IMG/VR virus record: IMGVR_UViG_3300030333_005542
Span: 1-30,605 of that record
Strand: one strand, 5' to 3'
From: a virus
Length of the DNA stretch: 30,605 nucleotides
Part shown: positions 624-5,905 of the stretch, one piece after another
Numbering within the stretch: the first letter of the stretch is position 1
Layout of the letters: each line of letters begins with the position of its first letter
Position numbers and translations under genes: made by a program
The notes under the pieces: generated by a model
Told to the model about the DNA's origin: nothing
Database searches by the model: none
The model's input: only the letters and a program-made list of their open reading frames with translations

Positions 624-652
624 ATGGGCAGGGTTATTGACACTCTGCCCAT
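624..652 (+). repeat. 8-bp stem hairpin overlapping promoter P2
   Basis: ATGGGCAG (624-631) pairs perfectly with CTGCCCAT (645-652) around a 13-nt loop (632-644). The flanking AATA/ATATT extends the pairing with one bulged C. The -35 hexamer of the following promoter lies entirely within the loop. No T-run follows, so any terminating role would be weak. Confidence 0.7.
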
Positions 653-665
653 CATATTGTATAAT
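637..665 (+). promoter_or_regulatory. perfect consensus sigma70 promoter P2
   Basis: TTGACA (637-642), exactly 17 bp, then TATAAT (660-665): a full-consensus sigma70 promoter. Expected start is near 672. The first substantial gene downstream is the 79-aa ORF at 876, so the transcript would carry a leader of about 200 nt. The -35 box sits in the loop of an 8-bp inverted repeat, the arrangement expected of a stem-loop/early-promoter cassette. Confidence 0.85.
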
Positions 666-795
666 AATAATATACACTTAGTGTGCTTATGAGTTCTTGA
701 CAGTTTAGACAGTTATTATGCCCCCTATGTTATATTGTGCGGTGCGGGCGTTGCGTTTATAAAAATCGAAAGTGTCTAACCTACAACGAACCGAA

Positions 796-833
796 TTCGA
801 GAGCTATATATAAATTTCTCGAAAAATTTTTTT
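796..833 (+). terminator. hairpin plus T-run, possible weak terminator
   Basis: TTCGAGA (796-802) pairs with TCTCGAA (817-823) around a 14-nt loop, followed by AAA and then seven T (827-833). The T-run is three bases off the stem, so termination may be partial. The loop contains TATATAAAT, close to a T4-type late promoter box, so the element could instead be promoter-associated. If it terminates, it would attenuate P2 transcripts before the 79-aa gene. Confidence 0.4.
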
Positions 834-860
834 GACCTTCTCAGGTTTGCTATATAAAAA
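832..860 (+). promoter_or_regulatory. possible promoter before the 79-aa gene
   Basis: TTGACC (832-837) is followed by an extended -10-like TGCTATATA (848-856) that also reads as the late-type box TATATAAAA. Spacing between the two hexamers is shorter than ideal, so this is a weak sigma70 candidate; the late-type reading also departs from NATAAATA. It is listed because it is the only promoter-like element close to the start at 876. Confidence 0.3.
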
Positions 861-3503: not shown

Positions 3504-3905
3504 GTGCCGATAGAACGGGTCAGTCAAGGTTTTAAAGACATTAGTATGACATTTCAGTCTAATCCACTGAATGAAGACCTTATTGCGATCAAAAATGAAA
3601 ACGCAATTGCCCGTTCTTTACGAAATATTGTTTTTACAACACCTGGAGAGAAGTTTTTTAATGAATCTTTTGGTTCAAGGATTACCGAATCTCTTTTTGA
3701 GAATATAGATGAGATTACTGCTACTATTATTGTCGATGAAATTCGACAATCAATTGATAATTACGAGCCAAGAGTAGCAGTAGACGATGTAAAAGCATTT
3801 CCAAACTATGATAACAACAGTTTTGATGTAATTATTACATATGAAGTGATTGGATCACAAATTCCAACACAAGAATTACAGTTTGTTTTGCAGTCTAGTA
3901 GATAA
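3504..3905 (+). CDS. gp25: baseplate wedge protein gp25
   Basis: The 133-aa protein belongs to the GPW/gp25 family (PF04965; T4 gp25 is of almost identical length). It opens with PIERVSQGFKDISMTFQSNP, which I recognise from cyanophage gp25. The core shows AIKNENAIARSLRNIVFTTP then GEKFFNESFGSRI (about 26-60), including the family's PGEKFFNxxFGS loop, then a helix and the closing strand QELQFVLQ. gp25 nucleates sheath polymerisation at the inner baseplate and forms part of the wedge core with gp6. The start is GTG at 3504; the conserved N-terminal PIERVSQGF begins at the next codon, so this start is preferred over the internal ATG at 3547. It is followed by gp6 after 2 nt. Confidence 0.96.
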   Translation: MPIERVSQGFKDISMTFQSNPLNEDLIAIKNENAIARSLRNIVFTTPGEKFFNESFGSRITESLFENIDEITATIIVDEIRQSIDNYEPRVAVDDVKAFPNYDNNSFDVIITYEVIGSQIPTQELQFVLQSSR

Positions 3906-3907
3906 AA

Positions 3908-5905
3908 ATGCCATTAGCTAATTTTTCTAACTTGGATTTTGACCAAGTTAAGTCAACTTTACAAGAATATCTCAAATCTAACTCGAATTTCACAGATTAT
4001 GACTTCGAGGGATCTAACCTGTCAACAATTTTAGACGTTTTAGCATATAATACCTACATTACTTCATACAATGCCAACATGGTAACGAATGAAGTCTTCA
4101 TTGATACCGCAACTTTAAGAAAAAATATTGTTTCATTAGCAAGAAATATAGGTTATACACCCCGTCCAAGACAAGCAGCAAGAGCAACTATATCTTTCTT
4201 TGTTGATACTGGTTCAGTTTCTCCTCCACCTGCTTCTTTGACCCTTAAAAAGGGTCCAGTGGCAGCATCAACTGGTTCTTTTGGTGGACAATCCTTTATT
4301 TTTTCAATTTTAAGTGATATTACGGTTCCTGTTCTTGATGGAATTGCAACTTTTGATGATATTGAGATTTATGAAGGAACATTATTAACACAAACTTATA
4401 CATATTCTGCAAGAATTCCAAATCAAAAGTTTATTTTACCAAATATTGGTGTTGATACTGATTTGATCACAGTTACGGTAAATCCAACTGAAGCTTCTGC
4501 CACAGAAACAAAATATAATTCACAAAATAGTCTTTTTGATGTAAAATCTGACTCAAAAGTTTATTTTTTACAAGAAATTGAGGATGAAAGATATGAAATA
4601 TTCTTTGGAGATGGAATTTTTGGAGAAGCACTAGAAGATGGTAATTTTATCACAATTAATTACATAACTTCTAATGGTGATTCTGCAAATGGGGTAAGTT
4701 CTTTCAATTTTTCAGGAAGAATTCAATATACACGCAATGCAACCACTTATAATGTAACAACTGGCATTTCTTTACTTACAACTGGTATAACTGCTTCTGG
4801 TGGTGAGACAATTGAGTCGGTAGAGTCGGTTAGAAAGTTTGCTCCAAGAATTTATGCTTCACAAAACAGAGCAATTACAGCAAATGATTATGAATCATTA
4901 ATTCCAGCAAGAATTTATCCAGAAACAGAGTCAATTTCTGTTTTTGGAGGTGAAGATCTTGTTCCTCCTCAATATGGAAAGGTCTTTATTAGCATAAAAC
5001 CAAAAACTGGCGATTTTCTTCCAAATTTAGTTAAAGAACAATTAAAATTAAAATTGAAAAAGTATGCAGTAGCAGGAATTGTTCCCGAAATACTTGATTT
5101 GAAGTATCTTTATCTTGAAGTTGATTCAAAAGTTTATTTTAATTCAAATCTTGCAGAATCTGCAGAATCTGTTTCTAGTCTTATTCAAAATAATGCTAAT
5201 AAGTATGCAGAATCGACAGAAATGAATAAGTATGGTGCTAGGTTTAAATATAGTAAGTTTTTATCTCTTATTGACAATAGTAATGAATCTGTAACTTCTA
5301 ATATTACAACAATTAATATGAGAAGAGATTTGAGAGTTGTATTAAATTCTTTTGCAGAATATTCTATTGGTTTTGGTAATGAATTTTATATTAAGAGAAT
5401 GAGTGGATATAATATCAAATCATCTGCATTTAGAATTGCTGGAATAATAGATGATGTTTATATTTCAGATATTCCTAATACAAATAAATTAAATGGATCT
5501 TTATTTTTATTCACTGTTCCTTCAATCGATTCTCAATCTCCAAAAATTGTTAAAAGAAATGTAGGGACTATTAATTATAAACAAGGAGTTATTACTCTTA
5601 ATCCAATTAATGTCCAATCTGGAATGCTTAAAGATGGTCAAACTATTATTGAAATTTCAGCATGTCCTCTTTCTAATGATGTTATTGGATTACAGGATCT
5701 TTATTTGCAGCTAGATATTAATAACAGTAACTTTGAAATGGTTGTTGATGAAATTGCTTCTGGATTAGATCCTTCTGGTTCTAATTACATTACTTCTTCA
5801 AGTTATGCAAACGGCAGTTTAGTGCGTCCTGGTGGACGTAATGTTGCTGCAACAGGAGGATCTGCTATAGCTCCTACTACAACTACATCAACTACATCCT
5901 ACTAA
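3908..5905 (+). CDS. gp6: baseplate wedge protein gp6
   Basis: The 665-aa protein is close to T4 gp6 in length. The N-terminus (ANFSNLDFDQVKSTLQEYLK, then FTDYDFEGSNLSTILDVLAY) is the standard cyanophage gp6 opening, and the Baseplate_J-like core includes NEVFIDTATLRKNIVSLARN (about 59-78) and ARKFAPR/ITANDYESLIPARIYPE (about 310-340). gp6 forms the ring that joins the wedges and, with gp25 and the gp7-position protein, the conserved baseplate core. The C-terminus is an unusual low-complexity tail, GGSAIAPTTTTSTTSY, absent from what I recall of T4 gp6. It is co-transcribed with gp25 (2-nt gap) and lies 18 nt before the giant gene. No Shine-Dalgarno. Confidence 0.95.
   Translation: MPLANFSNLDFDQVKSTLQEYLKSNSNFTDYDFEGSNLSTILDVLAYNTYITSYNANMVTNEVFIDTATLRKNIVSLARNIGYTPRPRQAARATISFFVDTGSVSPPPASLTLKKGPVAASTGSFGGQSFIFSILSDITVPVLDGIATFDDIEIYEGTLLTQTYTYSARIPNQKFILPNIGVDTDLITVTVNPTEASATETKYNSQNSLFDVKSDSKVYFLQEIEDERYEIFFGDGIFGEALEDGNFITINYITSNGDSANGVSSFNFSGRIQYTRNATTYNVTTGISLLTTGITASGGETIESVESVRKFAPRIYASQNRAITANDYESLIPARIYPETESISVFGGEDLVPPQYGKVFISIKPKTGDFLPNLVKEQLKLKLKKYAVAGIVPEILDLKYLYLEVDSKVYFNSNLAESAESVSSLIQNNANKYAESTEMNKYGARFKYSKFLSLIDNSNESVTSNITTINMRRDLRVVLNSFAEYSIGFGNEFYIKRMSGYNIKSSAFRIAGIIDDVYISDIPNTNKLNGSLFLFTVPSIDSQSPKIVKRNVGTINYKQGVITLNPINVQSGMLKDGQTIIEISACPLSNDVIGLQDLYLQLDINNSNFEMVVDEIASGLDPSGSNYITSSSYANGSLVRPGGRNVAATGGSAIAPTTTTSTTSY

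Follow-up and report, generated by a model that had tools for sequence, protein, structure and literature searches.

A hairpin superimposed on an early-type promoter as a putative 3'-end/5'-start unit between accessory modules of marine T4-like cyanophages

Within about 45 bp, positions 624 to 665 of a virus record of 30,605 bases (the window, that is, the whole stretch of DNA analysed here) hold both a stem-loop and a sigma70-type promoter, and the locus raises the question of whether the two form one regulatory unit, what such a unit would do between small accessory genes, and whether it resembles the hairpin-promoters of other T4-type phages. The lineage of the window can be read from its gene order: gp25 and gp6 (3504-5905) are followed by an ORF of 4839 aa in the gp7 position, an arrangement (giant gp7 baseplate order) that is also found in S-SM2 and Bellamy. 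Because of these genes, and because its DNA relatives include the cyanophages P-SSM2, S-SSM7 and SynMITS9220M01 together with single-cell marine viruses, the window is assigned to the Kyanoviridae, the T4-like cyanophages.

A promoter and a hairpin on the same DNA

The promoter (637-665, plus strand) matches the sigma70 consensus at 12/12 positions, with the -35 hexamer TTGACA at 637-642, a spacer of 17 nt and the -10 hexamer TATAAT at 660-665; from sigma70 geometry, transcription is predicted to start near 672, about 7 nt past the -10. The sequence-only reading had described a full-consensus promoter with its -35 in a hairpin loop and TATAAT 17 bp further on, and the scan confirmed this description; across the hairpin alignments the -35 varies little or not at all. 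The 8-bp stem that it had proposed (624-631/645-652) is likewise present and extends to 11 pairs including one G-U (arms 624-634/642-652, loop 635-641, plus strand), a form in which the final A of the -35 is drawn into the stem. The RNA of positions 603-670 folds with -18.6 kcal/mol (z -3.45), and none of 200 dinucleotide shuffles was equally stable. Perfect promoters are not a product of chance in this lineage, since TTGACA-N16-18-TATAAT occurs 8 times in P-SSM2, 7 times in S-SSM7 and 10 times in SynMITS9220M01 (25 in total) and its backwards control not once. According to the accessible parts of two genomic studies, cyanomyoviruses have none of the T4 genes for polymerase modification and presumably rely on host sigma70 to transcribe their early genes (PMC2984593), their sigma70 early promoters being presumed to be read by the unmodified host polymerase, and intrinsic terminators are predicted in their intergenic regions (PMC3037559, PMC2984593).

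The setting is one of non-core genes, all encoded on the plus strand. Upstream, a small gene pair is preceded by an early-type promoter (TTGACA-17-TAGAAT, 167-195, 11/12 matches in the motif scan) and comprises an ORF of 59 aa (226-405, phrog_12516, function not assigned) and an ORF of 41 aa (477-602), which matches PSSM2_071 of P-SSM2 at the DNA level and for which no protein family was matched. The hairpin begins 21 nt past the stop codon of the latter and lies about 220 nt ahead of the first gene 3' of the promoter, an ORF of 79 aa (876-1115, phrog_2626), after which come two 2OG-Fe(II) oxygenase-like accessory genes (1115-1672 and 1669-2298) and, with gp25 (baseplate wedge, 3504-3905), the beginning of the late structural block. 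The unit had been placed at the left edge of an accessory block; we find it inside a series of accessory genes (226-2298), with gp25 about 2.8 kb further downstream. The window carries two further perfect promoters. One (2284-2312) lies directly ahead of the phrog_1574 gene (2335), with its -35 overlapping the 3' end of the preceding oxygenase gene, and is kept in many relatives without a strong hairpin. The other, on the minus strand (TTGACA-18-TATAAT, 92-63), has an inverted repeat, GAGCAG/CTGCTC, around its -10 and a further hairpin, ACCCTC/GAGGGT, just upstream; judged by eye, its arms differ in L003, L006 and L013 yet still pair.

We consider it probable that, in a T4-like cyanophage, the element at 624-665 serves as a composite 3'-end/5'-start unit, which insulates early modules from one another and possibly serves as an exchange junction. 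Transcripts of the small upstream early genes, initiated at the promoter near 167, would enter the hairpin at 624-652 and be ended or trimmed there. The same DNA would act as an early promoter, the hairpin loop providing the -35 and the 3' arm the spacer, from which the host sigma70-type RNA polymerase would start the next early transcript near 672. Superposition would in this way need only about 45 bp to insulate adjacent early modules from each other, and the unit would offer a junction at which modules could be exchanged without loss of either terminator or promoter. Promoter, hairpin, selection on pairing, position behind stop codons, T-richness, recurrence and mosaics are all read from the DNA itself; we infer termination, initiation, early timing and a unit that would cause rather than only tolerate exchange.

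Selection on pairing and terminator signs across cyanophages

A conserved non-coding block between the promoter and the next gene (690-840, plus strand, core CTAACCTACA at 776-785) was used as the anchor for gathering homologous loci by pattern scans. Among the matches listed, 245 block loci remained after removal of near-duplicates, 129 with and 116 without a promoter, and a further 29 had too little sequence; the 245 include a few fortuitous matches, for example one within purM of M01. Promoters were accepted with up to two mismatches at 60-190 nt upstream of the block and were picked by mismatches, not by hairpin. A -35-centred hairpin (score at least 18) was present at 61 of the 129 promoters among the matches listed, compared with 4.4% of control windows from the same loci. 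The overlap of hairpin and promoter is an option rather than a requirement, since the other 68 listed promoters have no strong -35-centred hairpin.

When the 5' flanks of the listed loci were re-dealt before the spacers of other loci (20 repeats), hairpins numbered 9.9 on average and 14 at most, against the 61 observed. Within a locus the two arms match, but they do not match those of other loci, so that pairing is conserved and letters are not: the arm types include GGGCAG, GTGCCCC, AACCCTCTTA, CACGGGG and GGCGGG, and the register of the hairpin relative to the -35 slides from one homologous locus to another. By this comparison, selection at the homologous locus acts on the pairing and not on the sequence, the stems themselves differing widely. 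In AG-345-E15, the nearest named relative, the -35, the end of the spacer and the -10 are unchanged, and the left arm is altered with the stem re-formed one base over. Changes on both sides were found at 11 of 12 pairs in one set of homologous sequences (A4) and at 8 of 11 in another (A5, both as ungapped alignments), counts that illustrate rather than prove compensation because the sequences were chosen for bearing a hairpin. The variability of the arms also bears on the idea of an operator, at which a dimeric regulator would bind the inverted repeat and cover the -35. The dyad is centred on the -35, a classic position for a repressor, and a perfect promoter may need to be shut off later in infection; a protein site, however, would be expected to conserve letters, whereas here the arms vary and the register slides with pairing kept, which makes an operator very unlikely.

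The arrangement is not confined to this locus. Hairpins were scored at 322 promoters with no more than one mismatch, drawn from 11 cyanophage genomes that are complete or almost so, and the score profile was maximal where the loop sits on the -35. Hairpins centred on the -35 occurred at 25 of the 322 promoters against 8.9 expected, an excess of about threefold, and at 9 of 65 perfect promoters against 1.75 expected; with a laxer score of 16 the excess was smaller (31 versus 19.5 expected). Short hairpins are common enough to suggest a chance meeting of promoter and palindrome, and 31 of 1190 control TTGACA sites lacking a -10 (2.6%) have one. Against such a coincidence stand the genome-wide enrichment, the excess of hairpins at the listed loci over their controls and the failure of all 200 shuffles to reach the stability of the window's fold, and for the homologous locus it is refuted by the re-dealing of flanks, so that we give it practically no weight. 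These data support the view that marine T4-like phages repeatedly place a hairpin on an early-type promoter and that selection maintains the arrangement.

Many of the recurrent units have the sequence of complete intrinsic terminators whose U-run continues into the -10. They include P-SSM4 1923, after gp32; P-SSM4 40542, in a gap of 61 nt ahead of a restriction-modification pair; P-SSM2 68535 and 142801; P-TIM68 152765; S-PM2 124309, before hli03; S-SM2 143550 and 167151, the latter again before hli03; and Bellamy 184228, before an hli gene. With the exception of the S-SM2/Bellamy pair, their stems appear unrelated. At the listed homologous loci, an upstream ORF stops within 0-30 nt of the hairpin in 47 of 58 cases, compared with 8 of 62 promoters without a hairpin, loci with too little upstream sequence being left out of the count; T makes up a mean of 4.1 of the 8 nt 3' of the 3' arm, where 2.5 would be expected. 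The hairpin thus bears the marks of a terminator in the stop codon just upstream and the T-rich tail; in the window the U-run 3' of the stem is weak (CATATTGTAT), and because of this weak tail, termination at 624-652 is a step that we infer.

A hairpin that protects the 3' end of the upstream mRNA or acts as a processing barrier, rather than a terminator, would be in keeping with the close spacing behind stop codons (2-29 nt in the 47 of 58 listed loci), and the promoter overlap would then only save space. A U-run that is weak in the window, and likewise in several relatives, agrees with this, but the T enrichment after the stems does not, nor do the complete terminators of the same geometry in P-SSM4 (both sites), P-SSM2 (68535), S-PM2 and S-SM2 (167151). 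We regard 3'-end protection alone as unlikely, though as deserving some weight, and prefer the composite unit.

Stop codons can also overlap the -35 itself. Over the 11 cyanophage genomes, the TGA contained in the -35 hexamer terminates an upstream ORF of at least 60 codons at 32 of 261 early-type promoters, compared with 100 of 4148 TTGAC controls, and stop codon, -35 and sometimes terminator loop coincide, for example at P-SSM2 142801 (L186), S-PM2 124309 and P-TIM68 152765.

Likeness to PeSLs and apparent exchange of modules

Promoter-early stem-loops (PeSLs) are reportedly carried by RB49, Phi1 and other T4-type phages. Each consists of a strong sigma70-like early promoter with a superimposed or adjoining terminator stem-loop between non-core genes of the hyperplastic region, and near-identical copies are present at several sites per genome, recombination between which exchanges modules. 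The window's unit is like them in placing a strong sigma70-type early promoter on a hairpin at an accessory-gene boundary, and in signs of module exchange at the unit. A direct search of the genomes showed that RB49 and Phi1 carry early promoters overlapped by hairpins, whose centres lie at +12 (in the spacer) or about +20 (around the -10) and whose stems, such as AGGGGATC/GATCCCCT, are reused near-identically at several sites; hairpins centred on the -35 are few in these T4-type genomes, examples being RB49 30176 and 18532 and KVP40 97800 and 34965. The cyanophage units, in contrast, have hairpin centres at 0-8, on the -35, with site-specific stems, and the window's unit is single-copy.

The window's unit was found once in the 30.6-kb record, and a search for the mobile cassette that the sequence-only reading had envisaged returned the GGGCAG-type unit once in each of 14 contigs, always at the same locus, these being partial genomes. 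A copied cassette is rejected for this unit, which is single-copy at one locus of these partial genomes and unrelated in stem to other sites. The PeSL concept invoked by that reading holds largely for mechanism and role (superposition, terminator signatures, apparent module exchange) and fails for the copied cassette and for the RB49/Phi1 geometry: judged by its sequence, the unit would be PeSL-like in its working, without repeated copies as far as partial genomes allow and with a geometry of its own.

The accessible text of Sullivan et al. 2010 (PMC3037559) and Clokie et al. 2010 (PMC2984593) treats the prediction of promoters and that of terminators as separate matters and does not mention superposition on the -35. 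Puxty et al. 2015 (PMC4503421), in the accessible part of that study, sought an early promoter and stem-loops in S-PM2, a phage of the same family, found them apart and judged a PeSL role unlikely for an ORFan region; S-PM2 has a superimposed unit at 124309, before hli03. In the open-access literature searched, nothing was found on superimposed hairpin-promoters in cyanophages, and the only discussion of PeSLs in cyanophages met there is in the last of these studies, which doubted them for one S-PM2 region.

Two kinds of mosaic bear on exchange. Measured back from the end of the -10, contigs L114 and L116 share 93-100% identity with the window in the bins between 90 and 30 nt and 87% in the final 30 nt; beyond the -10, identity falls to 57-67%. 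With L118 as the reference, they reach 50-57% in the 60 nt leading up to that point and mostly 77-100% thereafter. By these profiles, both mosaics switch at the promoter, and since L114 and L116 are near relatives, they may represent one event. The second case is a unit made up of AGGAACCCTTGACAGGGTTCCT, a U-run and TATAAT, which is near-identical in 20 contigs (L590-L609). The gene that follows belongs to one family, hli by annotation, in all 19 readable contigs, and the preceding gene to three unrelated families (7, 3 and 6 of 16 readable contigs); in L608 the hairpin is retained and the promoter part differs. Mosaics and hli unit fit a role of such units as exchange junctions, and a driving role goes beyond these data. 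The unit may be a passenger rather than the cause of exchange, because stems at the homologous loci are replaceable with the flanks kept. Among 109 pairs with downstream identity above 0.85, the core fell below 0.65 in 8 and an upstream control segment in 23, and two further controls gave 0 but overlap or adjoin the segment by which the pairs were selected; the comparison does no more than place the change point at the promoter or upstream of it. The 27 upstream and 22 downstream gene families counted at the homologous locus come from a crude ORF calling, in which the upstream ORF of the window was assigned a different frame, and no argument is built on them.

Among the genes that marine T4-like cyanophages carry and exchange are some of host origin, such as hli and pstS; the unit bears on how these, once transferred, keep correct expression. 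A terminator-like hairpin and an early promoter are combined in one 45-bp element, with pairing under selection at one locus across the family, and such elements recur before hli and restriction-modification genes and exactly at mosaic junctions. The principle of superposition is thereby seen to be independent of any copied sequence, and PeSL-like shuffling becomes testable in a lineage for which the accessible text of PMC4503421 had doubted it.

The conserved non-coding block downstream

Across the Kyanoviridae, the block headed by the window's promoter lies upstream of the gp25 region. Of 13 complete genomes, 9 have it as a single copy in a comparable position (M01 gives a second match, the one inside purM); in ACG-2014f it is present in degenerate form, judged by eye, and in P-SSM2 it is present but a promoter was not found ahead of it. 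Its matches in the annotated phage collection (10 records) are all to cyanophages apart from one marine single-cell virus. The core CTAACCTACA is invariant in 48 aligned sequences, all of which were collected by that word and necessarily contain it, and is followed by ACGAACC, GAGGTGACA, AAAGTGGGT or AAGGT variants. A structured non-coding RNA was rejected, as RNAalifold predicted no pair in the 48 block sequences, Rfam gave nothing at its curated cut-off (two weak chance matches fell below it) and the single-sequence fold was no better than shuffles (z -0.30). A short conserved peptide around CTAACCTACA (PNLQ then R/K in many variants, by eye) was also dropped, with an in-frame TAA just before it in S-SSM7 and no start codon.

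The block invites two other readings of the unit. In the first, termination and reinitiation would be coupled, the polymerase released in the spacer being recaptured by the adjacent promoter, and its product would be less an mRNA than the launch of a single-copy, cis-acting block with core CTAACCTACA, for instance a replication origin or genome-control site. Maxima of the detrended cumulative GC skew lie about 3-11 kb from the block in five of the nine genomes that have it (P-SSM2, S-SM2, Syn9, P-SSM4 and S-SM1), a proximity that an early-to-late gene switch would also give, and not near it in S-SSM7, M01, P-TIM68 and Bellamy. A single theta origin is predicted for Syn9 in the accessible part of PMC2984593. 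We consider this coupling rather unlikely.

In the second, the hairpin would be a DNA-level switch that, extruded or single-stranded, takes the -35 out of the duplex, for instance while DNA is replicated from an origin close by that is associated with the block. A single-copy, position-conserved non-coding block directly downstream, without conserved RNA structure, would suit such a switch, but the same geometry is found at many sites that lack the block, and the upstream stop codons and T-rich tails point to RNA 3' ends; we hold it to be highly improbable and retain the composite 3'-end/5'-start unit.

Hairpins are also found on the other side of the promoter. Over the 11 cyanophage genomes, a smaller second peak of hairpin scores lies about 40-44 nt past the start of the -35, just after the -10, with examples before the block in P-SSM4 and Syn9, an arrangement resembling a terminator placed at the very beginning of the transcript.
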